A stretch of DNA of 64,000 nt from positions 248,001-312,000 of the forward strand of contig NZ_QOIN01000028.1 in assembly GCF_003323715.1 (NCBI RefSeq). Direction: 5' to 3'. Positions 2,821-52,263 of the stretch are shown here, one piece after another. The notes under the pieces are model-generated. The model ran no database searches. It was not told where the DNA came from and saw only the letters and a list, made by a program, of their open reading frames with translations. This DNA comes from Streptomyces diacarni. GTDB lineage: Bacteria > Actinomycetota > Actinomycetes > Streptomycetales > Streptomycetaceae. How positions within the stretch are numbered: the stretch's first letter is position 1; each line of letters opens with the position of its first letter. The position numbers and the translations under genes were made by a program.

Positions 2821-5016
2821 TCAGTCCGTGGAGCCCATGTCCCCCTCGCCGACCTCGTCGGCCTCCGCCGCGCGCGCCGACTCCGTGAGCAGGACGCGCA
2901 GACGCGTCACCCGTTCCGGGGCCGGGCCCGAGACGACGGCGCGGGGGAGGGCGTCACCGGCGCCGTGGACGACGGAGAGATGCTGCTCGCCGCGGCCGAA
3001 CGCGGTGTAGACCCATGCGCGGGACAGCGCCTCCGTGGCGTCTCCCGGCAGCACCACGACGGCTGCCGGCCAGCGCAGGCCCGCCGCCTGGTGTGCTGTC
3101 ATCGCCCAGCCGTGCCGCAGGGTCTCCGGCACCCGGTCGGGCGGGACCGTGAGCGTGCGTCCGTGGCAGCTGAGGTGGAGCCCTTCCTCGTCGGCGGAGG
3201 CCACCGTGCCGATCTCGGTGCGGCCGGGTGCGGGGGAGTGGGCGACGCGGTCCCCGGGGTCGAAGCCGGCGAACCGGCCCGGGCCCGGGTTGAGCCGTTC
3301 CTTGAGGGCGGCGTTCAGCGCGCGGGTGCCGGCGGAGCCGCCGTGTCCCGGCGTGATGACCTGGGTGTCCTCCGTGGGCACGCCGATGGCCCGGGGCACC
3401 GAGTCGGCGACGAGCTGCACCGTGCGGTGGACCGCCTCGCCTGCATCCTGCACGGGGACGATGACGACTTCCTTGCCGGGGGCCTCCACCTGCAGCAGCT
3501 CACCGACGCCGATGCCCGACACCAGCTCGCCGACGGGGCCGGGGTCGGGCGTGCGCGAGGCGACGTGCGGGCAGTACCGGGCCGCGACCAGGTCGCCGAA
3601 CACCTGTCCGGGCCCTGCCGCGCCGAGCACTCCCGGATCGCCGCTGAGCACCAGCCGCGCGCCGTCCGGCAGGGATTCCAGCAGCGCCGCTGCGCCTTCC
3701 GCGTCGAGCTGCGGGGCGTCGCACACGGCCAGCAGATCCACCGCGAGCATCCCCTCGGCGTCCCGCTCGGGGCCCTCCGTCCCGGCCAGGGTCCCGGCGA
3801 CCGTGGCGCAGCCGGTATCCGCGACGGTGTGGGCGCCGGACTCACCGCCCTGACCGCCCTGACCGGTCTCACCGTCCGCCTCGTCCGTCTGCGTGGCCGC
3901 GGTGGCGGCCGCTGCCGCTGCCGCCGTGCCGGCGGGGCCTGTGACCGCTTCGACGAGCCGCGTCATGCGGGCTCGTCCGTCATCCGTATGGGTGAGGGCC
4001 CAGGCGCGCAGCCCGAGCCGCCGCGCCGCGACGACGAGCGCGGCGATCTCCGCGCGGGACGCCTCGCCCCCCGAGTGGGTGACCAGCCCGCTGCCTGCCG
4101 CGGTGGCGATGAGCTCTTTCGCGGACGGGGAGGGCGCCGCCTCGGCCGCGGCGGACCAGCCCGGCGCGGCGGACTCGACCGCCGTGTCCGCCGTGTCCGC
4201 CGCTCCCCGCCCCTGGTGCGCCGTGTCGAAGGTGCTCGCGATGCGGGCGAGGGCGTCGGCGAGGCTCTCCTCCGCCAGTGCGTAGCGGTCCAGGCCGAAC
4301 AGCATCCGGACGGGGCGCTGCTCTTCGCCGGCCTCTTCCTCCGCGCCCTGCCCGGAGCCCCGCCCCGGGGTGGAGGGAGTGGGGCCCGCGTCCAGTGCGT
4401 CCTCGAACACGAGGACGGCGCCCGCGTCGACGGCCTCGCGGACCGCCTCCTGGGGGTCGGGCAGTGCGTGCCGGGCCAGGCCCTCGGCGAGGGCCGCCGG
4501 TTCCTGCACCGTGTCGCCCCGCAGCGCGGCGCGCTCCAGCAGCCTGACGACGAGCGCGACCGCCCGCCGCGCGTCCCCGGGTCCGGCCTCCTCGCCGAGC
4601 AGGGCGCGGGCGAATCCGTCGGCCTGCTCGGGGTGCACCCCCGCGACCGCCAGCAGCTGCCACGGGTCGGCACGCAGTACTTCCGCGGCGCCCTCACCGA
4701 GAGCCTCGACCACGCGCGGGGCCAGGGACTCGGGTGCGCCGCCTTCCGCCAGCAGGGCCCGCACCTCCTCGGGGACCACGATCCGGCCCCCGAGGAGGCC
4801 CTCCCCGCGCGCAGGGCGCGGCGCGGCCTGCCCGGCCGGGGCGCGCCCTGCCGGTACGCCCCCGGCGTCCGCGCGGTCCTGTGCGCCGCCGGCCGCCGGC
4901 CTGCGGGCCGGGGAGGCGGGCTGCTTCCGCTCGGTGAAGAAGGTGTCGGCGGAGCGCTCGCCGTTCTCCACCGCGCGGACGGCGGCGAGGAGTTCGGCTG
5001 TCCGGTCGTTGCTCAC
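2821..5016 (-). CDS. Degenerate RecD2-like helicase-fold protein with HhH region
   Basis: A 731-residue protein with the RecD2 layout: a helix-hairpin-helix-type region (about residues 95-165, LRADPWQLLAVAGVHPEQA), a linker, then a superfamily-1B helicase fold. The ATPase motifs are all eroded. Where RecD2 has GGPGTGKT there is THSGGEASR (about 310-318); the Walker B DE is CDAPQLD (about 425); GDPDQLPSVGPG is replaced by GDPGVLGAAGPG (about 455); and the MTIHKSQG motif reads MTAHQAAG (about 640). The fold is therefore recognisable, but ATP hydrolysis is improbable. The GTG start overlaps the stop of the aldo/keto reductase gene by 4 nt (GTGA). A PafBC-type promoter lies about 80 bp upstream inside that gene. 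A structural or DNA-binding role in repair is inference. Confidence 0.8.
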   Translation of the reverse strand: MSNDRTAELLAAVRAVENGERSADTFFTERKQPASPARRPAAGGAQDRADAGGVPAGRAPAGQAAPRPARGEGLLGGRIVVPEEVRALLAEGGAPESLAPRVVEALGEGAAEVLRADPWQLLAVAGVHPEQADGFARALLGEEAGPGDARRAVALVVRLLERAALRGDTVQEPAALAEGLARHALPDPQEAVREAVDAGAVLVFEDALDAGPTPSTPGRGSGQGAEEEAGEEQRPVRMLFGLDRYALAEESLADALARIASTFDTAHQGRGAADTADTAVESAAPGWSAAAEAAPSPSAKELIATAAGSGLVTHSGGEASRAEIAALVVAARRLGLRAWALTHTDDGRARMTRLVEAVTGPAGTAAAAAAATAATQTDEADGETGQGGQGGESGAHTVADTGCATVAGTLAGTEGPERDAEGMLAVDLLAVCDAPQLDAEGAAALLESLPDGARLVLSGDPGVLGAAGPGQVFGDLVAARYCPHVASRTPDPGPVGELVSGIGVGELLQVEAPGKEVVIVPVQDAGEAVHRTVQLVADSVPRAIGVPTEDTQVITPGHGGSAGTRALNAALKERLNPGPGRFAGFDPGDRVAHSPAPGRTEIGTVASADEEGLHLSCHGRTLTVPPDRVPETLRHGWAMTAHQAAGLRWPAAVVVLPGDATEALSRAWVYTAFGRGEQHLSVVHGAGDALPRAVVSGPAPERVTRLRVLLTESARAAEADEVGEGDMGSTD

Positions 5017-6068
5017 AGCTCGCTCCAGTCCTGGTCGGGGTAGCGGTGCACGGGTGCCGAGACGTCGTCCAGCGCCGCTCGGATTTCACCAGGAAGACTA
5101 AGGCCCTCCACTGACAACGCCTCCGTGAGCTGCTGCGGCGTGCGTGCGCCGACGATCGGCGCCGTCACGCCCGGCCGGTCGCGAACCCACGCGAGCGCCA
5201 CCTGGTGCGGGGGAAGTGCGAGTCCGTCGGCCGCCGTCGCCACCGCGTCCACGATCCGCCCCGCGGTCTCGTCCAGGTACGGCTCGACGAACGGCGCCAG
5301 CCGCTCGGAGGCGCCGCGCGATCCCGGGGGCGGGGGGCCTGGCTGCCGGTACTTGGCGGTGAGCACCCCGCGGCCCAGTGGTGAGGAGGGCAGCAGTCCG
5401 ATGCCGAGGTCGAGTGCCGCCGGCAGCACCTCGCGTTCGATGCCGCGCTGCAACAGCGAGTACTCCATCTGGGTACTGGCCAGCCGGTGCCGTATGCCCG
5501 GCGCCGCCAGTTGCCAGGTGCCCGCCTTGGCCAGCTGCCAGCCCGAGAAGTTCGACACTCCGACGTAGCGGGCACGCCCGCTGGTCACGGCGGTGTCCAG
5601 TGCCTGGAGTGTCTCCTCCAGCGGTGTGCAGGGGTCCCACGCGTGCACCTGCCACAGGTCCACGTGGTCGGTGCCGAGCCGCTCCAGTGAGGCGTCGAGC
5701 GCGGCGAGGAGGTGGCCGCGCGAGCAGTCGAAGCGGCGGTCGGGTTCCGGGACGTTGCCGGCCTTGGTGGCGATGACCAGGTCCCGGCGCGGCACCAGGT
5801 CGCGCACCATCCGTCCCAGCAGGTACTCGGCCTCCCCGTCGCCGTACACGTCGGCGGTGTCCACGAGGGTGCCGCCTGCCTCCCAGAACGCCTTGAGCTG
5901 GTCGGCGGCGTTGCGCACGTGCTGCTCGTGGCTCTCGCCCGACTCCGTACGGCCGCTGTGCGCACCGCCGGCGCCCGAGCGCCCGCCGCTGCCCCGCGCC
6001 CAGCTGAGGGTGCCGAGACCGATCCGGGATACGCGCAGGCCAGTGCGGCCGAGGTGCCTTAGCTCCAT
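5013..6068 (-). CDS. Aldo/keto reductase
   Basis: A 351-residue TIM-barrel NADPH-dependent oxidoreductase. The N-terminus MELRHLGRTGLRVSRIGLGT is typical; the active-site Asp/Tyr lie in DTADVYGDGEAE; the catalytic Lys is in IATKAGN; the catalytic His is in DLWQVHAWDP. The C-terminal NADPH-binding region follows. A Ser/Gly-rich insertion (about residues 24-48) lengthens the N-terminus. Substrate unknown. The downstream RecD2-like gene overlaps by 4 nt. The ATG lacks a Shine-Dalgarno but has a -10 TACGCT 8 nt upstream, so a leaderless transcript is likely. Confidence 0.9.
   Translation of the reverse strand: MELRHLGRTGLRVSRIGLGTLSWARGSGGRSGAGGAHSGRTESGESHEQHVRNAADQLKAFWEAGGTLVDTADVYGDGEAEYLLGRMVRDLVPRRDLVIATKAGNVPEPDRRFDCSRGHLLAALDASLERLGTDHVDLWQVHAWDPCTPLEETLQALDTAVTSGRARYVGVSNFSGWQLAKAGTWQLAAPGIRHRLASTQMEYSLLQRGIEREVLPAALDLGIGLLPSSPLGRGVLTAKYRQPGPPPPGSRGASERLAPFVEPYLDETAGRIVDAVATAADGLALPPHQVALAWVRDRPGVTAPIVGARTPQQLTEALSVEGLSLPGEIRAALDDVSAPVHRYPDQDWSEL
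5095..5117 (-). promoter_or_regulatory. PafBC/RecA-NDp type promoter for the RecD2-like gene
   Basis: Read on the minus strand the sequence is TTGTCAGTG, 8 nt, TAGTCT. This is an exact match to the damage-inducible consensus TTGTCRGTG-N8-TANNNT. It lies inside the 3' end of the aldo/keto reductase gene. The predicted start near 5087 gives a leader of about 70 nt before the GTG at 5016. Confidence 0.8.
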
Positions 6069-6076
6069 GGGCGTTG

Positions 6077-6082
6077 AGCGTA
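6077..6082 (-). promoter_or_regulatory. Predicted -10 (TACGCT) of the aldo/keto reductase gene
   Basis: TACGCT on the minus strand, 8 nt before the ATG at 6068; predicts a leaderless mRNA. Confidence 0.4.
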
Positions 6083-6141
6083 GTTGTGGCGGGCGTTAGA
6101 GTCCGTGGGGTACGGGACATTACTGATCAGTAGGGAGTTGG

Positions 6142-7206
6142 GTGCGGATGGGGATGCGACTGGGCATCAACCTCGGCTACTGGGGCGCCGGGATGGATGC
6201 GGACAACCTGGCCGTGGCCAAGGAGGCCGACCGGCTCGGTTACGACGTGTGCTGGGCGGCCGAGGCCTACGGGTCGGACGCCGCGACCGTGCTCACCTGG
6301 GTGGCGGCCCAGACCGAGCGGATCGACGTGGCCTCCGGCATCTTCCAGATCCCGGCGCGGACCCCGGCCATGACCGCCATGACGGCCGCGACGCTCGACT
6401 CGCTCTCCGGCGGCCGCTTCCGTCTCGGCCTCGGCGTCTCAGGACCGCAGGTCTCCGAGGGCTGGTACGGGGTGAAGTTCGACAAGCCGCTCGCCCGCAC
6501 CCGCGAGTACGTGGAGATCATCCGCAAGGCGATGTCCCGCGAGCGGCTGACCCACGAGGGCGAGCACTGGACGCTTCCGCTGCCCGGCGGCCCCGGCAAG
6601 CCGATCAAGCTGACCGTCCACCCCGAGCGGGAGGAGATCCCGCTCTACATCGCCGCGATCGGGCCCAGGAACCTGGAGCAGACCGGCGAGATCGCGAACG
6701 GCGCGCTGCTGGTCTTCTTCTCCCCTGAGCACGCCGAGGAGACGACGCTCCAGCACCTGCGGGCGGGCCGTGAGAAGGCCGGCAAGAGCATGGACGGCTT
6801 CGACGTGTGCCCCACCGTCCCGATGGCGCTGGGCGACGACATCGACGCGCTGGCCGATCTCTTCCGCCCCTACACCGCGCTCTACGTGGGCGGCATGGGC
6901 AGCCGCAAGCAGAACTTCTACAACAAGCTCGCCCAGCGCATGGGCTACGGCGACGAGGCCGCCGAGATCCAGGACAAGTACCTGGCAGGCGACAAGGAGG
7001 GGGCGGCCGCCGCCATCCCGCGCGACCTGATCGACTCCACCACGCTGATCGGTCCGAAGGAGCGCATCGCCGAGCGGATGCGCGCGTACGCGGACGCCGG
7101 GGTGACGACACTGTCGCTGGCCCCCGCCGGATTCACGCTGGACGAGAGGCTGGCCGCCCTCCGGGCCGGCGTCGAGGCCCGGGAGCTGGCGGGGCTGGCC
7201 TCCTAG
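6142..7206 (+). CDS. LLM class F420-dependent oxidoreductase
   Basis: A luciferase-like monooxygenase-family protein of about 354 residues. It has a (beta/alpha)8 fold with the N-terminal strand MRLGINLGYWG, an E-A-Y/G segment (WAAEAYGSDAAT), the SGGRFRLGLGVSGPQ loop typical of F420-using members, and a C-terminal ALYVGGMGSRKQNFYN segment. Three starts are possible: GTG 6142, ATG 6148 and ATG 6154. The Shine-Dalgarno AGGGAG at 6132-6137 best fits 6142 or 6148. Substrate cannot be inferred. It is divergent from the aldo/keto reductase gene and followed by two strong hairpins. Confidence 0.88.
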   Translation: MRMGMRLGINLGYWGAGMDADNLAVAKEADRLGYDVCWAAEAYGSDAATVLTWVAAQTERIDVASGIFQIPARTPAMTAMTAATLDSLSGGRFRLGLGVSGPQVSEGWYGVKFDKPLARTREYVEIIRKAMSRERLTHEGEHWTLPLPGGPGKPIKLTVHPEREEIPLYIAAIGPRNLEQTGEIANGALLVFFSPEHAEETTLQHLRAGREKAGKSMDGFDVCPTVPMALGDDIDALADLFRPYTALYVGGMGSRKQNFYNKLAQRMGYGDEAAEIQDKYLAGDKEGAAAAIPRDLIDSTTLIGPKERIAERMRAYADAGVTTLSLAPAGFTLDERLAALRAGVEARELAGLAS

Positions 7207-7270
7207 GTCCGCCGCACGGACGCCCGGCACACCCCGCGGTCTCCTCGAACGGGCCGCACCGGATATCCCG

Positions 7271-7313
7271 CGCCCCGCCCGTACGGAACTCATCGTCCCG
7301 TACGGGCGGGGCG
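7271..7313 (+). terminator. Terminator hairpin 1 after LLM gene
   Basis: A perfect 16-bp stem (7271-7286 with 7298-7313; CGCCCCGCCCGTACGG) closes an 11-nt loop, 64 nt after the stop. There is no T-run, as is usual in Streptomyces. Confidence 0.8.
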
Positions 7314-7330
7314 CGTCCCGTACGGGCTAC

Positions 7331-7360
7331 GGGGCCGCACCGTGTTCGCGGTGCGGCCCC
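7331..7360 (+). terminator. Terminator hairpin 2 after LLM gene
   Basis: A perfect 12-bp stem (GGGGCCGCACCG with CGGTGCGGCCCC) closes a 6-nt loop. It is the second of two tandem hairpins. The remaining 244 nt before the next gene hold no other gene; a relatively AT-rich patch at about 7505-7580 probably contains the promoter of the ferritin-like gene. Confidence 0.75.
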
Positions 7361-7604
7361 GGGGAAGGTGTTCGCGGCCGTGGTGGGGGCTCGGGGGTCT
7401 TCCCCGCCACGGCCGCCACGCAGCACAACGCCGGTCGGTCCGCGCGGTTACGCGGCGGACGCGAGGTTACGCGCCGGGTCGAGCACGCCTGATGCGTTCT
7501 GCGCAGAACGGCTCAGCATCTGTTGCCCCGAAGCGTACGTGGTATTTGACTCGTTCCTTGCGGATGTCGTGTTTTGTGGGAACTCGCGCACGGAGGTGGC
7601 GGCG

Positions 7605-8474: not shown

Positions 8475-8538
8475 AGCAGCCACCCCGAGTAGCCCCTGGT
8501 GCCGCGCCGGCGTCGGAACCAGTCCGTGCGGCGCCGGC

Positions 8539-9531: not shown

Positions 9532-9586
9532 TGTCCCGTGCCCGGGCCGCTGGACAACCCGGCAGCCGCATCCGGGCGGACTCGCT

Positions 9587-9592
9587 TAGGGT
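9587..9592 (+). promoter_or_regulatory. Predicted -10 (TAGGGT), leaderless start
   Basis: TAGGGT lies 6 nt before the ATG at 9599 and no Shine-Dalgarno is present. Confidence 0.5.
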
Positions 9593-9598
9593 TGCGGC

Positions 9599-29105: not shown

Positions 29106-29978
29106 TCAGTCCCCCGCTTCGGGGGCCGCCACCTCCTCGGCCGCGCGCGGCTCCGGGAGCCGCGGCTGGATCATCAGCGGATACGGCGGGGGAGTGCCCC
29201 CGAACTCCGGGCAGTGCGCCTGGTGGTCGCACCAGCCGCACAGCTTGCCCGGCTTGGGCCGCCAGTCACCCGTCTCCGTCGCCCTGCTGATCGCGTCCCA
29301 CAGCGCCAGCAGCTTGCGTTCCGTGGCCCGCAGGTCGCCCTCCTGCGGGTCGTAGGTGAGCACGTCGCCGCTGCCGAGAAAGACCAGCTGCAGCCTCCGG
29401 GGCAGCACGCCGCGCAGCCGCCACAGCACCAGGGCGTAGAACTTCATCTGGAACAGCGGCCCGTCCGCGTACTCGGGGCGCGGCGCCTTGCCCGTCTTGT
29501 AGTCGACGATGCGCACCTCACCCGTCGGTGCGACATCCACCCGGTCGATGATGCCGCGCAGCCGCAGCCCCGACTCCAGCCGGGCCTCCACGAACAGCTC
29601 CCGCTCGGCGGGCTCCAGCCGGGTGGGATCCTCCAGGGTGAACCACCGCTCGACCAGCTCCTCGGCCTGCGTCAGCCACTGCGCCAGTTGGGCGCCGTCC
29701 TCGGCGAACAGCTCCGCCAGCTCCGGCCGCTTGGCCAGCAGCCGCTCCCACTCGCCGGCCACCAGGCCCCGGGCGCGGCCCGCGCTGCGCTCGGCCGCAG
29801 GCGCGTCGAAGAGTCTTTCCAGCACCGCGTGCACCACCGTGCCGCGGGTGGCGGCGGCGGAGGGTTTCTCCGGCAGTTTGTCGATCACCCGGAAGCGGTA
29901 GAGCAGCGGGCACTGCATGAAGTCCGCTGCCCGGGAGGGCGACAGCGAGGTCGGCGGTGTGGCCGCGCGGGTTTTCAT
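29106..29978 (-). CDS. RecB-family PD-(D/E)XK nuclease with Fe-S cysteines
   Basis: A 290-residue nuclease. The PD-(D/E)XK core is GIIDRVDVAPTGEVRIVDYKTGK, shown here as IIDRVD and VDYKTGK; the His of TVVHAVLERLF and the Q of FQMKFYALVLW complete the Cas4/AddB/RecB-like arrangement. Cysteines at MQCPLLYRF and CGWCDHQAHC (Cx2Cx5C) fit a 4Fe-4S cluster as in AddB and Cas4. It probably processes DNA ends in repair. The start ATG 29978 is preceded at 8 nt by the -10 of a PafBC-type promoter, which implies a leaderless, damage-inducible mRNA. Confidence 0.9.
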   Translation of the reverse strand: MKTRAATPPTSLSPSRAADFMQCPLLYRFRVIDKLPEKPSAAATRGTVVHAVLERLFDAPAAERSAGRARGLVAGEWERLLAKRPELAELFAEDGAQLAQWLTQAEELVERWFTLEDPTRLEPAERELFVEARLESGLRLRGIIDRVDVAPTGEVRIVDYKTGKAPRPEYADGPLFQMKFYALVLWRLRGVLPRRLQLVFLGSGDVLTYDPQEGDLRATERKLLALWDAISRATETGDWRPKPGKLCGWCDHQAHCPEFGGTPPPYPLMIQPRLPEPRAAEEVAAPEAGD

Positions 29979-29986: not shown

Positions 29987-30009
29987 ACCCTAAGGCCCAC
30001 CACTGACAG
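29987..30009 (-). promoter_or_regulatory. PafBC/RecA-NDp type promoter for the RecB-family nuclease
   Basis: On the minus strand: CTGTCAGTG, 8 nt, TAGGGT. Only the first base differs from TTGTCRGTG-N8-TANNNT. The -10 ends 8 nt before the ATG at 29978. Confidence 0.8.
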
Positions 30010-30112
30010 CGGACACTTACCATCGACGGCAGACCCCTCGCACCGTACGGCAGGCCGATCCGGCAGGCGGCGCGGAGCGGCGGGACGCGAGGGAAGCAGC
30101 AGAGGGGAACCC

Positions 30113-31393
30113 GTGGCGGACGAGGACAACGACGGGAAGCCGCCGGCCGGTGGCTCCGGCCAGGGGACCGGCCATGGTGGGCCGTCCTCCCGCAAGCCGA
30201 CCCCCGGCAGACCCGCCCGCCCGAACCCGCCTGGCGGCGGCATCCTGATGGGACGCCCGTTCGGCGTCCCGGTCTACGTCGCGCCCTCCTGGTTCCTGGT
30301 GGCCGCGCTCATCACCTGGGTCTTCGGCGGCCAGCTCGAACGGGTCCTGCCCGAGCTGGGCGGCCTGCGCTATCTGATCGCGCTGTTCTTCGCCGTGGCC
30401 TTCTACGCCTCTGTGCTGGTCCACGAGCTCGCCCACACGGTCGCCGCGCTCCGCTTCAAGCTGCCGGTGCGCCGCATCCAGCTGCAGTTCTTCGGAGGCG
30501 TCTCCGAGATCGAGAAGGAGTCGGAGACGCCGGGGCGCGAGTTCGTCCTGGCGTTCGTGGGGCCGCTCTTCTCGCTGGTGCTGGCCGGCGTGTTCTACGT
30601 CGCGATGCGCGCCGTGGAGCCGGGCACCGTCCCCGGCGTCCTGCTGGCCGGGCTGATGGTCTCCAACCTGCTCGTGGCCGTCTTCAACCTGCTGCCCGGG
30701 CTGCCGCTGGACGGCGGCAGGATGCTGCGCGCCGTCGTGTGGAAGATCAGCGGCAAGCCCATGACGGGCACGGTCGCCGCCGCCTGGGTGGGCCGGGCGC
30801 TGGCCGTGGCCGTGCTGATCGGGCTTCCGCTGGCCACCCACGCGGGCGGGCTCGCCAGGGGCGGCGTCAGCGGTATGGACTCGCTGACCGACGCGCTGCT
30901 CGCCGCGATCCTGGCGGCCATCATCTGGACCGGCGCGGGCAACAGCCTGCGGATGGCCCGGTTGCGCGAGCGCCTTCCCGAGCTGCGCGCCCGCACGCTG
31001 ACCCGCCGAGCCGTGCCCGTGGAGACCGACACCCCGCTGTCCGAGGCCCTGCGCCGCGCCAACTCCGCCGGGGCCCGTGCGCTGGTCGTCGTCGACGGCA
31101 AGGGCGATCCGCTCTCCCTCGTACGGGAGGCCGCCATCGCCTCCGTCCCCGAGCACCGGCGCCCCTGGGTGGCCGTCAGTACACTCGCGCAGGATCTCAA
31201 GGAGGGCATGCGCGTTCCCGCGGAGCTGGCCGGGGAGGACCTGCTGGAGTGGCTGCGTGCCACTCCGGCGACCGAGTACCTGGTCGTGGAGGACACCGGT
31301 GAGATCTACGGGGTGCTGTCCACCGGGGACGTCGAGCGGGCGTTCGTCGCGGCCATGTCGAACCGCGCCGACCGGCGGGGCGCCCGTACCTGA
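30113..31393 (+). CDS. Site-2 protease family (M50) metalloprotease with CBS domains
   Basis: A 426-residue membrane protein from GTG 30113 (VADEDNDG), with an AGGGGA Shine-Dalgarno. After a Pro/Gly-rich cytoplasmic N-terminus come several membrane helices. The zinc site is VLVHELAHTVAALRF (HExxH, about residues 104-108) plus the third ligand in NLLPGLPLDGGRM (about 200). The C-terminal half (about 290-420) contains CBS-domain sequence, e.g. LVVVDGKGDPLSLV and YLVVEDTGEIYGVLSTGDVE. The family cleaves proteins inside membranes; CBS regions often sense adenine nucleotides. Substrate unknown. Confidence 0.9.
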   Translation: MADEDNDGKPPAGGSGQGTGHGGPSSRKPTPGRPARPNPPGGGILMGRPFGVPVYVAPSWFLVAALITWVFGGQLERVLPELGGLRYLIALFFAVAFYASVLVHELAHTVAALRFKLPVRRIQLQFFGGVSEIEKESETPGREFVLAFVGPLFSLVLAGVFYVAMRAVEPGTVPGVLLAGLMVSNLLVAVFNLLPGLPLDGGRMLRAVVWKISGKPMTGTVAAAWVGRALAVAVLIGLPLATHAGGLARGGVSGMDSLTDALLAAILAAIIWTGAGNSLRMARLRERLPELRARTLTRRAVPVETDTPLSEALRRANSAGARALVVVDGKGDPLSLVREAAIASVPEHRRPWVAVSTLAQDLKEGMRVPAELAGEDLLEWLRATPATEYLVVEDTGEIYGVLSTGDVERAFVAAMSNRADRRGART

Positions 31394-37148: not shown

Positions 37149-37171
37149 ATGTCAGTCCCGGCTTGTAGGGT
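37149..37171 (+). promoter_or_regulatory. Degenerate PafBC-type promoter upstream of pup
   Basis: ATGTCAGTC, 8 nt, TAGGGT: correct spacing and -10, with 7 of 9 bases of the upstream element. The predicted start near 37178 gives a leader of about 44 nt before the pup ATG. Confidence 0.45.
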
Positions 37172-37221: not shown

Positions 37222-37440
37222 ATGGCGACCAAGGACACCGGCGGCGGACAGCAGAAGTCCACCCGCCACACCGAGGAGACCGAGGAGCAGGCGCAGGACG
37301 CGCAGGCTTCGGAAGACCTCAAGGAGCGCCAGGAGGCGCTTTCCGACGATGTGGACTCCGTCCTCGACGAAATCGATGATGTGCTCGAGGAAAACGCGGA
37401 GGACTTTGTTCGGAGTTTCGTTCAGAAGGGTGGCCAGTGA
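37222..37440 (+). CDS. pup: Prokaryotic ubiquitin-like protein Pup
   Basis: A 72-residue, acidic, mostly disordered protein beginning MATKDTGGGQQKSTRHTEET and ending QKGGQ. The C-terminal Gln must be deamidated by Dop before PafA links it to lysines of target proteins. The helix-prone central part (LKERQEALSDDVDSVLDEID) binds the Mpa/ARC coiled coil. Start ATG 37222 is preceded by GTGAGGGAA. A hairpin begins one base after the stop. Confidence 0.97.
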   Translation: MATKDTGGGQQKSTRHTEETEEQAQDAQASEDLKERQEALSDDVDSVLDEIDDVLEENAEDFVRSFVQKGGQ

Positions 37441-41996: not shown

Positions 41997-43358
41997 ATGG
42001 ACCGCCGAATCTTCGGGCTGGAGAACGAGTACGGCGTCACATGTACGTTCCGGGGGCAGCGGCGGCTGTCCCCCGACGAGGTGGCGCGGTACCTCTTCCG
42101 CCGTGTGGTGTCATGGGGCCGCAGCAGCAACGTGTTTCTGCGGAACGGCGCGCGCCTCTATCTGGACGTGGGCTCGCACCCGGAGTACGCGACACCCGAG
42201 TGCGACAGCGTGACCGAGCTGGTCACCCACGACAAGTCGGGGGAACGCATCCTCGAAGGCCTGCTGGTCGACGCCGAACGCCGCCTGCACGAGGAGGGCA
42301 TCGCGGGCGACGTCTACCTCTTCAAGAACAACACCGACTCGGCGGGCAACTCCTACGGCTGCCATGAGAACTATCTGGTGGCCAGGCACGGGGAGTTCTC
42401 CCGGCTCGCGGACGTCCTCATCCCGTTCCTGGTGACGCGGCAGCTGGTGTGCGGCGCGGGCAAGGTGCTGCAGACCCCGCGGGGCGCCGTCTACTGCGTC
42501 AGCCAGCGTGCCGAGCACATCTGGGAGGGCGTCAGCTCGGCGACGACGCGCTCGAGGCCCATCATCAACACCCGCGACGAGCCGCACGCCGACGCCGAGC
42601 GCTACCGCAGGCTGCACGTCATCGTGGGCGACTCGAACATGTCCGAGACGACGATGCTGCTCAAGGTCGGCGCCACTGACCTGGTGCTGCGCATGATCGA
42701 GGCGGGCACCGTGATGCGGGACCTGACGCTGGAGAACCCGATCCGGGCGATCCGCGAGGTCAGCCACGACATCACGGGCCAGCGGAAGGTCCGGCTGGCC
42801 AGCGGCCGTGAGGCCTCGGCGCTTGAGGTGCAGCAGGAGTACTTCGACAAGGCGCTGGACTTCTGCGACCGGCGCGGTATCCGCACGGGCCGGGTCGAGC
42901 AGGTGCTGGAGCTGTGGGGCCGGGCTCTGGAGGCGGTCCGCACCCAGGAGCTCGACAAGATCAACACCGAGATCGACTGGGTGATGAAGTACCAGCTCAT
43001 CGAGCGGTACCGGAACAAGAACAACATCACGATGTCGCACCCGAGGATCGCGCAGATAGACCTCGCCTACCACGACATCCACCGCCGCAGAGGGCTGTAC
43101 TACCTGCTGGAGCGCGGCGGCAAGGCGGCCAGGATCTGCAACGACGTGAAGATCTTCGAGGGCAAGTCGGTGCCGCCGCAGACGACGCGCGCCCGGCTGC
43201 GCGGCGACTTCATCCGGCGGGCCCAGGAGCAGCGTCGCGACTTCACGGTGGACTGGGTGCATCTGAAGCTGAACGACCAGGCGCAGCGCACGGTGCTGTG
43301 CAAGGACCCGTTCAGGTCGGTGGACGAGCGGGTCGAGAAGCTCATCGCGGGCATGTGA
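41997..43358 (+). CDS. pafA: Pup-protein ligase
   Basis: A 453-residue ligase that uses ATP to join the C-terminal Glu of Pup to substrate lysines. The start [18 protein letters not shown] carries the Mg-binding Glu pair (GLENEYG). Homology to Dop is clear ([40 protein letters not shown]), but the Dop-loop is absent. The C-terminal domain ([20 protein letters not shown], then [17 protein letters not shown]) is the Pup-binding cap. Only 15 nt follow the MFS stop. Confidence 0.96.
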
Positions 43359-45201: not shown

Positions 45202-45239
45202 GCCGGGAGTTCCGCACCTCGCGGGGCTCCCGGCTTTTG
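45202..45239 (+). terminator. Classic intrinsic terminator after FKBP gene
   Basis: GCCGGGAG pairs with CTCCCGGC (45202-45209 and 45227-45234), with inner CCGC/GCGG pairing, followed by TTTTGT. It is one of the few hairpins in the window with a real T-run. Confidence 0.88.
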
Positions 45240-45305
45240 TCGACGGCCGCGCCAACGGTACGGTCGAGGGTCCAGAACAGCATCACAGAGGGCACGAGGG
45301 AACCC

Positions 45306-46322
45306 ATGGCGATTGCCAAGGCCGAGCGGCTGATGAATCTGGCGCTGTGCCTGCTGGGGGCCCGCCGCCCGCTCACCAAACGGGAGCTGCGCGCCTCCAT
45401 CGAGGCCTACGTCGAGGCCTTCGGCTCGGGAGGGGCCGGTGTGGTCCCGGGCGGGGAGGGCGCCACCGGCTCCACCGAGTCCTTCAGCCGCATGTTCGAA
45501 CGGGACAAGGACGACCTGCGGGAGCTGGGCCTGGTCATCGACACCGTCGAGAACGTCGACGGGGAGACCGCCTACGTCGCCCGCCGCGACAGCAACCGCC
45601 TCCCGCCACTGGCTTTGGACGCCGCCGAGGCCACCGCGCTGGGGCTCGCCGCCCGGGTCTGGCAGCAGGCCCGCCTGGCGTCCGCGGCCAGCGGAGCCCT
45701 GCAGAAGCTGCACGCCGCGGGCGGTATGCCGCCCGGGGCCGTCCCCGAACAGGGCGGGGAGCGCCAGCTCGGCACGCTGGAACCGCACATCCCCGCGCGG
45801 GAGGCCGCGTTCGAGCCGCTCATGCTGGCCTGCCGCGACCGCCGCCCCGTCGTGTTCGACTACCGCAAGTCCAACGCCGCCCGCTCCGAACGGCGCCAGG
45901 TCGAACCCTGGACGCTGGAGTGCTGGCGCGGGCACTGGTATCTCGCGGGCTGGGACAGGGGCAGGCAGGACGAGCGGGTCTTCCGCCTCTCCCGGATCAC
46001 CGGGACCGTCCGCTCGCGGACCGGTGCCTTCTTGGCTGCCGTACCCGATCAGGTGACGGTGCGGGAGACGGTGGAGCGCTGGGCGGGCGAGGGCGCAACC
46101 AGCACCGCCCGCATCAAACTCCGCGAGGGCGCGGGCTACCCGCTGCGCGCCCGGGCGCTCGCCACCCGGGAACTCGATGACGGGTGGGACGAGTTGGAGA
46201 TTCCGTACGGGCACGGCCTGGACGCCTGGCTGGTCGAGTTCGGCCCCGATGTCGTCGTGCTGGAACCGGCCGAGCTGCGTGCCGACGTCATCGACCGGCT
46301 GCGCGCCGTCGCCAAGGGCTGA
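45306..46322 (+). CDS. pafB: DNA-damage transcription activator subunit PafB (HTH-WYL)
   Basis: A 338-residue regulator with an N-terminal winged helix (MAIAKAERLMNLALCLLGAR, then KRELRASIEAY), a WYL domain (about 170-250; RPVVFDYRKSNAARSERRQV and WYLAGWDRGRQDERVFRLSR) and a C-terminal WCX extension. PafB and PafC form a heterodimer that activates RecA-NDp type promoters in mycobacteria after DNA damage; the WYL domain senses a nucleic-acid signal. Followed after 15 nt by pafC. Named for its position after pafA; not needed for pupylation. Confidence 0.93.
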   Translation: MAIAKAERLMNLALCLLGARRPLTKRELRASIEAYVEAFGSGGAGVVPGGEGATGSTESFSRMFERDKDDLRELGLVIDTVENVDGETAYVARRDSNRLPPLALDAAEATALGLAARVWQQARLASAASGALQKLHAAGGMPPGAVPEQGGERQLGTLEPHIPAREAAFEPLMLACRDRRPVVFDYRKSNAARSERRQVEPWTLECWRGHWYLAGWDRGRQDERVFRLSRITGTVRSRTGAFLAAVPDQVTVRETVERWAGEGATSTARIKLREGAGYPLRARALATRELDDGWDELEIPYGHGLDAWLVEFGPDVVVLEPAELRADVIDRLRAVAKG

Positions 46323-46337
46323 GGGGAGGAGAACCGC

Positions 46338-47300
46338 ATGGCCGTGAACGCGATCGACCAGACCCGCAGGATGCTCTCGCTGGTCACCTACCTCAAGGAC
46401 CGCCCGGGGGCCCGGGTCGAAGAGGTCGCGCGCGCGTTCGGCATCAGTGCCGACGAGCTGATCTCCGACCTGAACGTGCTGCCCATGTGCGGTACGAGCT
46501 TCCGTGGTGGGGACCTGCTGGAGATCGACACCGACGGCGAGCGCATCTGGTGGCGCAACGCCGACGCGCTGGGTGCCGACACGGCGCAGCCGCTGCGGCT
46601 GGCCGCTGACGAGGCCACCGCGCTGCTGGTCGCGGCCCGCGCCGTGGCCACCCTCCCGGGGCTGCGCGAGAGCGACCGGGACGCGCTCCAGCGTGCCACC
46701 GCCAAACTGGAGTCGGCCGCGGGGGAGACCGCGGGGGCCAGCGCCCGGCTGTCGGTCACCTTCGAGTCGGAGGGCGGCGTGTTCGCCGACGTCGACCGGG
46801 CCATCGCCGAGCGCCGCAGGCTGTGGATCAAGTACTACTCGCCGGCCAGGGACGAGCTGACCGAGCGCGAGGTCGACCCGATCCGCCTCTTCGCCGTCGG
46901 GCACACCTACGTCGAGGCCTGGTGCCGGCTCTCCGAGGCGCGGCGTACCTTCCGGCTCGACCGGGTCGCCGAGATCGAACTGCTGGACGAGCGGGCCGAC
47001 CCGCCGCCGATAGAGCCCCGCGATCTGAGCGCCGGGCTCGTGCAGCCCGCGGCCACCGATCCGGAGGTCGTCGTCGAGGTGGGGCCCGGCGGGCGCTGGG
47101 TCGCCGAGTACTACCCGTACGACAGCGCCGAGGAACTGCCCGACGGCGGTCTGCGCATCACCCTGCGCACCCCGGACCCCGCCTCCCTGCGCCGCTTGGC
47201 CCTGAGACTGGGGCGCGACGGGCGCATCACGGCCCCGGCGGACCTGGCGGCCAGCGCCCGGGAGGCCGCCGGAAAGGCACTGGCCGCGTACGACGCGTAG
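46338..47300 (+). CDS. pafC: DNA-damage transcription activator subunit PafC (HTH-WYL)
   Basis: A 320-residue partner of PafB. Same order: winged helix (MAVNAIDQTRRMLSLVTYLK, EEVARAFGISADELISDLNV), WYL domain (about 150-215; RRLWIKYYSPARDELTEREV and YVEAWCRLSEARRTFRLDRV), WCX domain. ATG 46338 has GAGGGGAGGAGA upstream. Operon with pafB. Three good target-type promoters occur elsewhere in the window. Confidence 0.93.
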   Translation: MAVNAIDQTRRMLSLVTYLKDRPGARVEEVARAFGISADELISDLNVLPMCGTSFRGGDLLEIDTDGERIWWRNADALGADTAQPLRLAADEATALLVAARAVATLPGLRESDRDALQRATAKLESAAGETAGASARLSVTFESEGGVFADVDRAIAERRRLWIKYYSPARDELTEREVDPIRLFAVGHTYVEAWCRLSEARRTFRLDRVAEIELLDERADPPPIEPRDLSAGLVQPAATDPEVVVEVGPGGRWVAEYYPYDSAEELPDGGLRITLRTPDPASLRRLALRLGRDGRITAPADLAASAREAAGKALAAYDA

Positions 47301-47409
47301 GCCGTGGTGGCTCCGCCTCTGTCGGGCGTCGGCCGCGGAGGAGGGGGCCGCGGAGGAGGGGGCCGCCGAGAGGCGGAACCGGTGGTTCGGCAGGCCCGCG
47401 GTGACGGCC

Positions 47410-47415
47410 TAAGCT
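47410..47415 (+). promoter_or_regulatory. Predicted -10 (TAAGCT), leaderless start
   Basis: TAAGCT lies 7 nt before the ATG at 47423; TTCGGC at 47386-47391 is a weak -35 at 18-nt spacing. Confidence 0.45.
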
Positions 47416-47422
47416 GGCGGGC

Positions 47423-47653
47423 ATGCTCTGGCCGATGTTCTTCCTGGCGCTCGCGTTCTGCGGGATCGCCGTTCTCGGGGTCCTCGCCGTCCGTGTGGGA
47501 CTGGAGGTGCGGCGCTTCTCGCGCGCCGTCGGTGACAGCTCGGAGCGGATCACACGGGCGGCGGAGAACCTGGAGCGCGCGGCGCAGCCGCTGGCGGCAC
47601 GCGGTGGCCGCGTGCACGGCACGGGTGGCGCCGAGGACCCGGAGGCAAGGTAG
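47423..47653 (+). CDS. Small single-pass membrane protein, unknown function
   Basis: A 76-residue protein: an N-terminal membrane helix (MLWPMFFLALAFCGIAVLGV), then an amphipathic helix rich in Arg/Glu (VRRFSRAVGDSSERITRAAE) and a Gly/His tail. Resembles small actinobacterial proteins encoded between pafC and tatA. The coiled second half could mediate oligomerisation. No function is known to me. Confidence 0.72.
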   Translation: MLWPMFFLALAFCGIAVLGVLAVRVGLEVRRFSRAVGDSSERITRAAENLERAAQPLAARGGRVHGTGGAEDPEAR

Positions 47654-47903
47654 CCGCAGGGGTACGGGAGGCGCCGCCGGTATCGCCGCCGTACAAGGCG
47701 GTCTCCAGGTGAGCGCGGAGGAGCGGTAGGCTGCCTGATGTCGCGTCGATGCGGCCTGGAGCGCGCAATCGGGTCGATGCACGGGGATTGCCCGGTGTTC
47801 ACTCCGCAGGGTTACGATCGATTCGGCACGTCAGCACGATGCAGCCAGTCCGATTCATCCGGCAGGTACAGCAACCCGCCGCCCGGCGAGAAGGTAGTGG
47901 CAC

Positions 47904-48191
47904 ATGATCGCAGGTTTGAAGCCCATGGAGATCGTACTGATTCTCCTTGTCATCCTGCTGCTGTTCGGCGCCAAGAAGCTCCCGGACATGGCCCGTTCGC
48001 TCGGCAAGTCGGCCCGCATCCTCAAGAGCGAAGCCAAGCAGATGAAGAAGGAAGGCTCCTCCTCCGACAGCGACGCGGACAAGCGTGGCGACGCGAGCCA
48101 GTCGACGGCGAAGACCATCCAGGCGGCGCCGGGCGACGTGGCGACCTCGCGCCCCGTCTCCGAGCCGGCCGACCAGGCCAAGCAGGGCTGA
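47904..48191 (+). CDS. tatA: Twin-arginine translocase subunit TatA
   Basis: A 95-residue protein with a short N-terminal membrane helix ([20 protein letters not shown]), the FGxKKLP hinge and an amphipathic helix ([20 protein letters not shown]), followed by an acidic disordered tail. TatA multimers form the pore for folded, twin-arginine-signal proteins. GAGAAGG is 10 nt before the ATG. Upstream of tatC by 103 nt; no tatB is here. The 250 nt before tatA hold its promoter region and no other gene. Confidence 0.95.
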
Positions 48192-48294
48192 GCGGCCGGC
48201 CAGGCGCGCCGACCCTCTTCCCGCCCGTCGCCCGGTGCCGGCCGAGCGGCGGCGGAGAACGCTGTATCCGACACTTCGAGACCGAGGATGAGGG

Positions 48295-49272
48295 TTGCTC
48301 AAGTCTGCCCGTAAGCAGGGTCAACAGCAGAAGGACCCCGAGGGGCGCATGCCGCTCGCGGACCACCTGCGGGAGTTGCGCAACCGTCTCATGAAGTCGG
48401 TGCTGGCCATCCTCGTCGTCACGATCGTGGCGATGGTCTACTACAAGCAGATCGCCGACTTCCTGATGAACCCCGTGCGGGAGTCGGTCGGCTGCAGCAA
48501 GGGTTTCGGAGAGGCCGCCAAGGAGGGCGAGACCTGCGCCGAAATCACCATCAACGGCCTGATCGCACCCTTCACGATCATGCTGAAGGTGGCGCTGACC
48601 GCGGGCGTCGTCATCGCCTCGCCGGTCTGGCTCCACCAGCTGTGGGGCTTTCTCGCGCCCGGGCTGCACAAGCACGAGAAGCGGTACGCGCGCTCCTTCG
48701 TCGGCGCCGGTGTGCCGCTGTTCGTGGCCGGGGCCTACCTCGCCTACCTGATCCTGCCGAAGGCCGCCGAGACGCTGCTGGACTTCAGCCCCGAGGGTGC
48801 GGGCAACCTCATCCCGCTCGACGACTTCCTCAACATCGTCACCCGTCTGGTGATCGTTTTCGGCCTGGCCTTCGAGCTGCCGCTGCTGCTCGTCCTGCTG
48901 AACTTCGGCGGCGTGCTGACCGGCAAGCGGCTCCTGGGCTGGTGGCGCGGCATGGTCATCGGGATCACCGTCTTCTCCGCCGTCGCCACCCCCACGGGTG
49001 ACCCGCTGACGATGGTCGCGCTCGCCGCGCCGATCGTGGCGCTGTACTTCAGCGCGGTCGGCATCTGCCTGTTCAACGACCGCAGGCGCAAGCGCGACGA
49101 CCCCTACGCCGGTCTCGACGACGACGAGGCCGCCCCGCTCGACCACGCCCCGGAGACCGTCGGCGCCTCCGACGGCCTGCCCGCGCCCCGCCCGGCCGCC
49201 GAACCCGACACCGGCGGGGACACGGGCAACGGCGAAGGACCCCGGCGCGGCGGTTACGACGACATCACCTGA
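48295..49272 (+). CDS. tatC: Twin-arginine translocase subunit TatC
   Basis: A 325-residue protein with six membrane helices. The N-terminal signal-binding face is MPLADHLRELRNRLMKSVLA, and the first loop contains the conserved Glu region. ASPVWLHQLWGFLAPGLHKHEKR and the later PTGDPLTMVALAAPIVALYF are typical. A 60-residue acidic cytoplasmic tail is longer than in E. coli. TTG start at 48295. Receptor for twin-arginine signals. Confidence 0.95.
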   Translation: MLKSARKQGQQQKDPEGRMPLADHLRELRNRLMKSVLAILVVTIVAMVYYKQIADFLMNPVRESVGCSKGFGEAAKEGETCAEITINGLIAPFTIMLKVALTAGVVIASPVWLHQLWGFLAPGLHKHEKRYARSFVGAGVPLFVAGAYLAYLILPKAAETLLDFSPEGAGNLIPLDDFLNIVTRLVIVFGLAFELPLLLVLLNFGGVLTGKRLLGWWRGMVIGITVFSAVATPTGDPLTMVALAAPIVALYFSAVGICLFNDRRRKRDDPYAGLDDDEAAPLDHAPETVGASDGLPAPRPAAEPDTGGDTGNGEGPRRGGYDDIT

Positions 49273-49419
49273 GCGACTGCCGACTGCCGACCGCCTGTGA
49301 CGGGTGCGGCACGGTTGCCCGCCCGCTGCGGCCCCGGGTGCCGGGGGAGGCCGCTCCCCTGACCGGTCGCGCGGCCCGGGCCGCTGCCACGTGCCATCAG
49401 CCGGTAAAGATCGTGAGTT

Positions 49420-49442
49420 GTGTCGGTGGTGGCCGGTAGGCT
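49420..49442 (+). promoter_or_regulatory. PafBC/RecA-NDp type promoter of the helicase gene
   Basis: GTGTCGGTG, 8 nt, TAGGCT: only the first base departs from TTGTCRGTG-N8-TANNNT. The -10 ends 10 nt before the ATG at 49453, so the leader is at most a few bases. Confidence 0.78.
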
Positions 49443-49452
49443 CGTACATACG

Positions 49453-52263
49453 ATGACCGAGGATCTGTCCCCAGCAGAGCGGTACGCGGCGGCGCGCGAG
49501 CGAGCCGCGGAGCAGGCCACCGCTCTCGCCCCCTTCCGTGACATGTACGACTTCGATCTGGACCCCTTCCAGATAGAGGCGTGCCAAGCCCTCGAAGCAG
49601 GAAAGGGAGTGCTGGTCGCCGCGCCGACCGGTTCAGGCAAGACCATCGTGGGCGAGTTCGCCGTCCACCTGGCCCTCACCCAGGGCCGCAAGTGCTTCTA
49701 CACGACGCCCATCAAGGCGCTGTCGAACCAGAAGTACAACGACCTGGCCAAGCGGTACGGCTCCGACAAGGTCGGCCTGCTGACCGGTGACAACAGTGTC
49801 AACTCCGAGGCGCCGGTCGTCGTGATGACGACCGAGGTGCTGCGGAACATGCTGTACGCGGGCTCCAAGTCGCTCCTGGGCCTCGGCCACGTCGTCATGG
49901 ACGAGGTCCACTACCTCTCCGACCGCTTCCGCGGCGCCGTGTGGGAAGAGGTGATCATCCACCTCCCGGCGTCGGTGACCCTGGTGTCGCTGTCGGCGAC
50001 CGTCTCCAACGCGGAGGAGTTCGGTGACTGGCTGGACACCGTGCGCGGCGACACCCAGGTGATCGTCTCCGAGGAGCGTCCCGTGCCGCTGTGGCAGCAC
50101 GTGCTGGCCGGACGGCGGATGTACGACCTGTTCGAGGAGTCGCGGGACAAGCGCGAGGTCAACCCCGACCTGGTGCGCATGGCCCGGATGGAGAACAGCC
50201 GGCTGCCCCGCGACCGCCGCAGAGGACGGCCCCAGCGGGAGGCCGACCGGGAGCGGGAGCGCCGCCAGCGCGCCCGGATCTGGACGCCGAGCCGCCCCGA
50301 GGTCATCGACCGGCTGGACGCGGAGGGGCTGCTCCCGGCGATCACCTTCATCTTCAGCCGTGCGGGCTGTGAGGCCGCCGTCCAGCAGTGCCTGTACTCC
50401 GGGCTGCGGCTGAACGACAACGCGGCCCGGGCGAAGGTCCGCGAGCTCGTCGAGGAGCGCACCAAGGACATTCCCGACAAGGACCTGCACGTCCTGGGCT
50501 ACTTCGAGTGGCTGGAGGGCCTGGAGAGGGGCATCGCCGCGCACCACGCGGGCATGCTGCCCACCTTCAAGGAGGTCGTCGAGGAGCTGTTCGTCCGCGG
50601 GCTGGTCAAGGCGGTCTTCGCGACCGAGACGCTGGCGCTGGGCATCAACATGCCGGCCCGCTCGGTGGTGCTGGAGAAGCTGGTCAAGTGGAACGGCGAG
50701 CAGCACGCCGACATCACCCCGGGCGAGTACACCCAGCTGACCGGGCGCGCGGGCCGGCGCGGCATCGACATCGAGGGCCACGCCGTGGTGCTGTGGCAGC
50801 GCAGCATGGACCCGGGCGCGCTCGCGGGCCTGGCGGGCGCGCGGACGTATCCGCTGCGGTCCTCCTTCAAGCCGTCGTACAACATGGCGGTCAACCTCGT
50901 CTCGCAGTTCGGCAGGCACCGCTCGCGTGAGCTGCTGGAGACGTCGTTCGCGCAGTTCCAGGCCGACCGCTCCGTCGTCGGCATCTCCCGGCAGGTGCAG
51001 AAGAACGAGGAGGGCCTGGCGGGCTACCGCGCCTCCATGACCTGCCACCTGGGGGACTTCGAGGAGTACGCGGGGCTGCGCAGGCAGCTCAAGGACCGTG
51101 AGACGGAGCTGGCCAAGCAGGGCGCCAACCAGCGCCGGGCGCAGGCCGCCGCCGCGCTGGAGCGGCTCAAGCCGGGTGACGTCATCCACGTGCCGACCGG
51201 CAAGTTCGCGGGGCTCGCCCTCGTGCTGGACCCGGGGGCGGGCGGCGGCCGCGGCTCGGGGCACCGCAGAGGGTACGACGGCGGTGCGGGCAGCGAGGGG
51301 CCGCGGCCGCTGGTGCTGACCGCGCAGCGGCAGGTCAAGCGGCTGGGGCCGATCGACTTCCCGGTCCCCGTCGAGCCGCTGGAGCGGATGCGCATCCCCA
51401 AGTCGTTCAACGCGCGCAGCCCCCAGTCGCGGCGCGATCTGGCCTCGGCGCTGCGCACGAAGGCGGGCCACCACGTGCCCGAGCGGCACCGCAAGCAGCG
51501 TTCGGCCGCCGCTGACGACCCCGAGATCGAGCGGCTGCGCAAGGCCATCCGCCAGCACCCCTGCCACGGCTGCGACGAGCGCGAGGACCACGCCCGATGG
51601 GCCGAGCGCTACCAGCGGCTGCGGCGCGACACCCGCCAGCTGGAGCGGCGCATCGAGGGGCGGACGAACACCATCGCGCGCACCTTCGACCGGGTCTACT
51701 CGCTGCTCTCCGACCTCGGTTACCTGACGGGCGACCACGTCACCGACGACGGGCGGGTGCTGGCCCGGCTCTACGGCGAGCTGGACCTGCTGGCCTCCGA
51801 GTGCCTGCGCGAGGGCGTGTGGGAGGGGCTTCCGCCCGCGGAGCTGGCCGCCTGCGTGTCCGCTCTGGTCTTCGAGGCGCGCAACGGGGACGACGCGCTG
51901 CCGCCCAAGATGCCCGGCGGCCGGGCTCGCGCCGCGCTGGGCGAGATGGTGCGTATCTGGGGGCGGCTGGACGCGCTGGAGGAGGACCACCGCCTCAGCG
52001 CCGCCGAGGGCGTCGGCCAGCGCGAACCGGATCTCGGCTTCGCCTGGGCCGCCTACCGCTGGGCGGAGGGCCAGGGGCTGGACGAGGTGCTGCGCGAGGC
52101 CGACATGCCCGCGGGTGACTTCGTGCGCTGGTGCAAGCAGGTCATCGATGTGCTGGGGCAACTGGCCGCCGCGGCGCCCGCGTCGGGCACGGTGGCCAGG
52201 AACGCCCGCAAGGCGATCGACGGCATGCTGCGGGGCGTGGTGGCCTACTCCAGCGTCGGCTGA
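49453..52263 (+). CDS. Ski2/HelY-like superfamily 2 helicase
   Basis: A 936-residue DEAD/DEAH-type helicase of the Ski2/Mtr4/HelY group. Walker A is APTGSGKT (residues 57-64), motif II MDEVHYL (about 150), motif III LSATVSN; the second RecA domain has FIFSRAGCEAA, HHAGMLP, TETLALGINMPAR and TGRAGRRGID. The C-terminal half carries a KOW-like insert region and a Cys/His pair (HPCHGCDEREDH, about 703), then the DSHCT-like helical end. It probably remodels RNA or DNA with a 3'-5' polarity. It follows tatC as HelY does in mycobacteria and has a PafBC-type promoter. Confidence 0.93.
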   Translation: MTEDLSPAERYAAARERAAEQATALAPFRDMYDFDLDPFQIEACQALEAGKGVLVAAPTGSGKTIVGEFAVHLALTQGRKCFYTTPIKALSNQKYNDLAKRYGSDKVGLLTGDNSVNSEAPVVVMTTEVLRNMLYAGSKSLLGLGHVVMDEVHYLSDRFRGAVWEEVIIHLPASVTLVSLSATVSNAEEFGDWLDTVRGDTQVIVSEERPVPLWQHVLAGRRMYDLFEESRDKREVNPDLVRMARMENSRLPRDRRRGRPQREADRERERRQRARIWTPSRPEVIDRLDAEGLLPAITFIFSRAGCEAAVQQCLYSGLRLNDNAARAKVRELVEERTKDIPDKDLHVLGYFEWLEGLERGIAAHHAGMLPTFKEVVEELFVRGLVKAVFATETLALGINMPARSVVLEKLVKWNGEQHADITPGEYTQLTGRAGRRGIDIEGHAVVLWQRSMDPGALAGLAGARTYPLRSSFKPSYNMAVNLVSQFGRHRSRELLETSFAQFQADRSVVGISRQVQKNEEGLAGYRASMTCHLGDFEEYAGLRRQLKDRETELAKQGANQRRAQAAAALERLKPGDVIHVPTGKFAGLALVLDPGAGGGRGSGHRRGYDGGAGSEGPRPLVLTAQRQVKRLGPIDFPVPVEPLERMRIPKSFNARSPQSRRDLASALRTKAGHHVPERHRKQRSAAADDPEIERLRKAIRQHPCHGCDEREDHARWAERYQRLRRDTRQLERRIEGRTNTIARTFDRVYSLLSDLGYLTGDHVTDDGRVLARLYGELDLLASECLREGVWEGLPPAELAACVSALVFEARNGDDALPPKMPGGRARAALGEMVRIWGRLDALEEDHRLSAAEGVGQREPDLGFAWAAYRWAEGQGLDEVLREADMPAGDFVRWCKQVIDVLGQLAAAAPASGTVARNARKAIDGMLRGVVAYSSVG

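Follow-up and report, generated by a model that had tools for sequence, protein, structure and literature searches.

Three repair-type genes of a Streptomyces Pup-proteasome region very probably share a genome-wide RecA-NDp promoter class, with PafBC as predicted activator

Genes for a RecD2-like protein, a RecB-like nuclease and a HelY-like helicase lie dispersed over one 64-kb stretch of the Streptomyces diacarni genome (64,000 nucleotides, hereafter the window) and raise the question of whether a shared promoter marks them as a unit of their own or ties them to something larger. An earlier note had proposed that all three have the same promoter architecture, with only a weaker further match at pup, and that their products could act in a single end-processing pathway. 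A motif scan of the window, a Pup-proteasome region of 68–75% GC in which Pfam also places proteasome subunits, confirmed the first of these points: the 22-base core TGTCRGTG-N8-TANNNT with at most one mismatch occurred at four places only, as an exact copy at each of the three genes and with one mismatch before pup (Table 1). Chance would give 0.24 such sites in the window (mean over shuffles), and 0 of 100 shuffles reached four. The core with zero or one mismatch was the useful search form; a strict version of 23 bases, beginning with an additional T and allowing three mismatches at most, returned 37 window matches against 14 expected, mostly noise.

Table 1. Coordinates of genes and promoter sites in the window.
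Feature	Position	Strand	Basis
RecD2-like protein (731 aa), Walker A absent, Walker B altered	2821..5016	-	PF14490, fold, motifs
Aldo-keto reductase gene hosting a promoter	5013..6068	-	PF00248
Exact core site, recD2-like gene	5095-5116	-	motif scan
RecB-like PD-(D/E)XK nuclease gene	29106..29978	-	PF12705 E 3e-39
Exact core site, recB-like gene	29987-30008	-	motif scan
One-mismatch core site before pup	37150-37171	+	motif scan
pup, 72 aa, ATG 50 nt after -10 element	37222..37440	+	N-terminus and length as in most relatives
pafA, Pup ligase	41997..43358	+	PF03136 E 2e-165
pafB (WYL, WCX), predicted activator half, start codon ambiguous	45237..46322	+	PF13280, PF25583
pafC (HTH_PafC, WYL, WCX), predicted activator half	46338..47300	+	PF19187 E 2e-29, 102 bits, cut-off 32
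Exact core site, helY	49421-49442	+	motif scan
HelY-like Ski2-type helicase gene	49453..52263	+	Hel308-type NCBIfam matches below cut-offs

Site counts and target genes

The host genome (7.66 Mb in 80 contigs) holds 37 exact core sites versus 0 for the reversed pattern, a crude control with which the window shuffles agree; this rules against a random density of the motif and supports the proposal of a shared damage-type promoter class. Three of the 37 copies fall within one 64-kb stretch, denser than even spacing (Poisson P = 0.004, for a window picked for that density). Summed over 16 same-genus genomes, host included, there were 771 sites versus 10 for the reversed pattern, and 185 of 197 genomes across the class hold at least one site, often few. 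As Streptomyces promoters generally have TANNNT as their −10 element (PMC8079986), the sites might be read as ordinary housekeeping promoters that resemble RecA-NDp by coincidence, the one inside a reductase gene being a by-product of coding. The excess of exact over reversed sites, the shuffles and the codon pattern described below all speak against that reading, which we find scarcely credible.

Families were sought with Pfam and NCBIfam for 33 of the 37 genes behind the sites (L003, L006, L024 and L025 were left out). Family calls placed 15 of the 33 among repair, recombination or replication genes, 8 in other families (including a sigma factor, TerD, YjbR and the helicase-like L011 and L027) and 10 in no family. 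Beyond the window trio, the repair-type targets comprise DnaE, AlkZ-like, Ogt, YoaA/DinG-type, XseA, SbcD, UDG, PcrA, RuvC, RadA-type, HhH-GPD and DnaX; the RadA-type call derives from Pfam domains, and several target matches are to genes truncated at the locus end. The L024 target is presumably RecA, judged by eye. The L003 site has no convincing gene, and some of the 37 host sites may be chance sites. A regulon special to the three window genes is rejected by the 37 sites and by the 12 other repair, recombination or replication genes behind the same motif; by sequence, the regulon is real, genome-wide and far larger than three genes.

Several sites stood out for other reasons. Several genomes of genus g37 (family f19) have far more exact sites than genomes elsewhere, among them G268 and G248 with 198 and 118, respectively, and a reversed control of 0; in these two an ATG or GTG follows at 6–9 nt after only 20 and 17 of the sites, and the excess may reflect either an expanded regulon or a repeated element bearing the motif. 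In the host, the sites of L011 and L012 (G000:C7:163420 and 164761) lie 1.3 kb apart on one strand, the former before a DUF3670/SNF2-type protein and the latter before a small protein to which Pfam assigns no family; the pair may mark an uncharacterised cluster induced by damage. Another exact site (L023) precedes a small protein that by eye resembles the SCO6735 macrodomain, with no Pfam match, and a further one (L036) precedes a 793-aa protein without an NCBIfam match.

PafBC as the predicted activator

We identify the window motif as RecA-NDp because its core matches the consensus given in PMC5656591, tTGTCRgtg-8-TannnT. In mycobacteria, target activation by PafBC runs through this motif (PMC6789036), and RecA-NDp promoters are present in Streptomyces at recA and at SCO6735, a UV-inducible macrodomain gene (PMC5087735). 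An initial search in S. venezuelae suggested a lack of conservation there for the PafBC motif of M. smegmatis, and a PafBC-type response in Streptomyces was called still to be shown in 2022 (PMC9380542); the 771-to-10 count in 16 same-genus genomes bears on this view of non-conservation.

The pafBC genes, which the earlier note did not name, lie at 45237–47300, in the same window as the three sites. The pafB name rests on the PF13280 and PF25583 domains and on the position of the gene between pafA and pafC. The host genome has five HTH_PafC matches, and another PafC-like protein could be the activator instead of the PafBC of the window. Across the class, 189 of 197 genomes had an HTH_PafC match, as did 5 of 14 control genomes; nine HTH_PafC-bearing genomes had no exact site, and one genome (G157, 78% complete) had 13 sites and no HTH_PafC match. 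With HTH_PafC in almost all genomes of the class, co-occurrence of PafC and motif says nothing about control.

Two other damage or stress regulators, LexA and ClgR, were considered as owners of the sites. LexA sites are given for ruvC, recA and dnaE2 of S. venezuelae (PMC9380542), ClgR reportedly recognises the recA P1 region of mycobacteria (cited in PMC5656591), and a LexA-type match with two mismatches lies at 30250–30263, some 240 nt upstream from the recB-like site, although matches of this grade number 56 in the window versus 42 expected. The conserved letters, however, form the asymmetric RecA-NDp motif and no palindrome, and within 300 nt of the three sites there was neither a LexA-type palindrome with at most one mismatch nor a ClgR-type palindrome with at most two. 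This lack of nearby palindromes weakens both candidates, and we hold either to be a very unlikely owner of the sites.

Placing the three genes in one genome-wide RecA-NDp class of 37 exact sites, predicted to be activated by PafBC and with pafBC itself in the window, is very probably the right reading. By analogy with mycobacterial PafBC (PMC11804915, PMC6789036), damage would give rise to single-stranded DNA that is bound by the WYL domains of PafBC; PafBC would then join RNA polymerase, which carries the housekeeping sigma factor, at promoters where TGTCRGTG (about −26) replaces the −35 element and TANNNT is the −10 element. We infer, with good support, that PafBC would control the window sites.

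Start-codon spacing and predicted leaderless mRNAs

Two start codons in the window had to be corrected: the recB-like gene probably begins at the ATG at 29978, not at 30023, 8 nt after the −10 element, and helY probably at the ATG at 49453, 10 nt after the −10 element, not at the GTG at 49420, which overlaps the promoter. The architecture described as identical in the three genes therefore stood as to the motif but not as to its placement, with two sites 8 and 10 nt before the start and the recD2-like site inside another gene and followed by a predicted leader.

The RecB-like protein carries VDYKTGK and CGWC...C, and the catalytic D...DYK residues are present, so that its product is predicted to be a nuclease with intact-looking catalytic residues; it scored 55.9 bits with the AddB equivalog TIGR02786, below the cut-off of 486.5, and at 305 aa is not a full-length AddB. 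The recB-like gene rv2119 of M. tuberculosis is named as one of a small number of repair genes that a recA mutant overexpresses when treated with mitomycin C (PMC8151990). Within the genus, the recB-like site was exact in 29 of 30 loci and had one mismatch in the other, with the ATG 7–8 nt downstream in all 30; these loci are the best-scoring 30 of 100 genomes with a match, host included, and lean to close relatives. Outside the genus, a site with at most two mismatches was found in 24 of 32 families, a level that letter shuffles reach in 3%, and the start lay 6–8 nt after the best site in 29 of the 32 (one genome for each family with a usable match; f3, f6, f10, f13 and f36, with none usable, were left out).

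The HelY-like protein carries APTGSGKT and DEVH, and its product would be a helicase with intact-looking ATPase motifs. Among 30 same-genus loci, the best-scoring of 41 genomes with a match (host included, all in the genus and leaning to close relatives), the helY site was exact in 13, had one mismatch in 11 and two in 5, and was lacking in 1; the ATG followed 8–10 nt after the site in 29. The fourth window site, at pup, was best matched with two mismatches in 17 and three in 2 of the 19 relatives (of 20) in which pup was placed. These sites mostly read TGTCRGACC, 36–84 nt from the start, with TAGGGT in 19 of 19, a conserved but diverged form of the promoter that makes pup a candidate member of the class.

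Close spacing is common among the host sites. At 23 of the 37, a coding-like ATG or GTG frame began 5–10 nt after the −10 element (one of these, L034 at 6 nt, has a rival second start at 52 nt), and 14 were without it; motif-less TANNNT hexamers in the same loci showed close spacing in 19 of 118. In five genomes from two other families (four of f33 and one of f40), 49 of 73 sites had a coding-like start 4–12 nt downstream, and 46 coding-like starts fell at 6 or 7 nt; the 73 were taken from 82 sites, one genome (G222) giving 20 of its 29. Counting any ATG or GTG at 6–9 nt gave 22 of 37 host and 54 of 73 other-family sites, and twelve control windows of equal width gave 1–5 and 4–14, respectively. 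Across the 16 same-genus genomes, 466 of the 771 sites had such an ATG or GTG.

In S. lividans the mean distance from the −10 element to the transcription start is 6.3 nt (mostly 5–7), and 17% of its transcripts are leaderless (PMC8079986). Because of this average, the mRNAs of the recB-like gene and of most of the regulon are predicted to begin 0–3 nt from the start codon and hence to be leaderless, at about three times the average frequency, a figure that compares spacing here with measured ends in S. lividans. The helY mRNA would have a borderline leader of 3–5 nt, and the recD2-like mRNA would start within the reductase gene, its leader being about 70 nt long. The nearest precedents found for such geometry, leaderless and intragenic, both come from M. 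tuberculosis, where the lexA mRNA is reported to lack a leader and a RecA-NDp site to fall within the annotated start of a gene (PMC2897130). In the portions of the literature searched, we did not find close start-codon spacing stated as a feature of the PafBC class, and this spacing, with the leaderless mRNAs that it predicts, appears new there.

The RecD2-like gene, its neighbourhood and related systems

PF14490 matched the product of the recD2-like gene above the cut-off and UvrD_C_2 just below, and TIGR01448 gave 106 bits, below the 500-bit cut-off. An AlphaFold2 model built with 40 orthologues (pLDDT 75, pTM 0.72) had Deinococcus radiodurans RecD2 (3gp8) as its top-ranked Foldseek match (E 1e-23, TM 0.74 by target length), and the protein shares the fold and HHH domain of the RecD2 SF1B helicase (3gp8, 3gpl, 3e1s). 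The motifs differ: where RecD2 has GGPGxGKS at Walker A, the Streptomyces protein has GGEASRAE or similar. With the full RecD2 that the host encodes elsewhere (834 bits) as alignment reference, GxxxxGK[ST] was present in 0 of 73 Streptomyces proteins (72 orthologues plus that of the window), the Walker A lysine position held A, T, S or E in all 73, and the DE of Walker B had become LD or similar in all 73. These losses support the earlier description of an inactive RecD2, as far as Streptomyces is concerned, and the protein would act, if at all, as a DNA- or partner-binding scaffold. In the literature searched, a Walker A loss across the Streptomyces RecD2-like proteins appears to be new.

Inactivity is not the general state, which was ruled out by relatives in other families: these scored 174–418 bits with the profile, above the canonical RecD2 of the host (123 bits), and 17 of 20 keep Walker A. 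The three losses among them may be independent cases, on which the tree does not decide. In family f17, the relatives in G194, G136 and G168 contain in-frame stops, which suggests gene decay in part of that family.

Among named relatives, the nearest found was S. reniochalinae, whose RecD2-like protein is 88% identical, and all 80 of the relatives kept bear Streptomyces or Streptomycetaceae names. Among the 120 best matches listed, most were named 'helix-hairpin-helix domain-containing protein' and a few 'ATP-dependent RecD-like DNA helicase' or 'exodeoxyribonuclease V'; the helicase or exonuclease activity that the latter names imply is unlikely, given the motifs.

The promoter site of this gene lies within the reductase gene, 78 nt before the GTG at 5016, and the reductase gene overlaps the recD2-like start by 4 nt (GTGA), an overlap found in all 74 placed loci. 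In 73 of these 74 loci, window included, the site was exact at a fixed register, and L054 had two mismatches. The loci came from 80 kept of 337 plus the window, 81 in all, of which 74 were placed without using the motif; the seven skipped were five with a start near a contig end, L053 with short upstream sequence, and L048, for which the script found no overlap and which nevertheless carries an exact site. Five reductase codons under the promoter end in A or T in 0.92–1.00 of loci, against a mean of 0.071 at the other 177, which is hard to square with a by-product of coding; on the side of that reading, codon −9 (nine before the stop), outside the promoter, also ends in A or T in 0.91 of loci. 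Taken by itself, codon −9 is perhaps a signal for the recD2-like start.

Outside Streptomyces, none of 20 other-family relatives had the site within two mismatches in the stretch examined, a count in which the G120 upstream sequence is cut off and G137 was read in the wrong frame. In the Streptomyces lineage the gene has lost its ATPase motifs and carries the promoter, and an intragenic site kept with A/T-ending codons is new in the literature searched. The idea that the three genes are consistently co-regulated fared accordingly by lineage: within Streptomyces it is good for the recD2-like and recB-like genes but weaker for helY, and beyond the genus the recB-like site holds and no recD2-like site was found in the stretch examined.

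It remains to weigh the proposal that nuclease, helicase and dead RecD2 scaffold form a private end-processing pathway with the promoter as its own signature. The three genes do fall, together with pafBC, inside a stretch of 50 kb, and in 11 non-Streptomyces genomes RecB-like and RecD2-like matches (the latter at least 170 bits) share one contig, 8–23 kb apart by eye; in the other nine of the 20 such genomes they are on different contigs. The genes thus appear to belong to an old genome-maintenance neighbourhood around pafBC, which is a hint of shared function and no more, as neighbourhood and co-regulation are no proof of physical interaction. Against a private pathway stand the many sites elsewhere in the genome, the 20 of 20 other-family relatives without the recD2-like site and the full RecD2 encoded elsewhere, and we consider it unlikely; a single pathway for the three products is unsupported.

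The preferred reading, membership in a genome-wide RecA-NDp class, has known relatives. Like the mycobacterial PafBC/RecA-NDp regulon, the class combines the same motif and spacing with repair-gene targets (PMC5656591, PMC6789036, PMC11804915), and pafBC sits beside pafA and Pup-proteasome genes; unlike it, the class is spread across Streptomyces and has a recD2-like target under an intragenic site. The Streptomyces recA and SCO6735 promoters (PMC5087735) are of the same promoter type in the same genus, but they concern single genes, and we found neither a genome-wide set nor a PafBC link described there. The kind of regulon is known, with new features. Deinococcus has another LexA-independent damage regulon, IrrE/DdrO, with leaderless mRNAs noted there; it differs from the RecA-NDp class in working by repressor release, with another regulator and another motif.

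We somewhat favour the view that the PafBC regulon is leaderless across actinobacteria and that Streptomyces has wired a dead RecD2 paralogue into it through an intragenic promoter. That paralogue is common in Streptomyces and has no name of its own, and the sites listed here make a PafBC-type, RecA/LexA-independent response directly testable in laboratory strains. If the leaderless reading is true, the activator would make transcription begin at the start codon itself for most of its targets, and damage-induced repair proteins would be translated from mRNAs that need no ribosome-binding site. In several families of actinobacteria, damage sensing would then be tied through one activator family to a distinct way of initiating translation.
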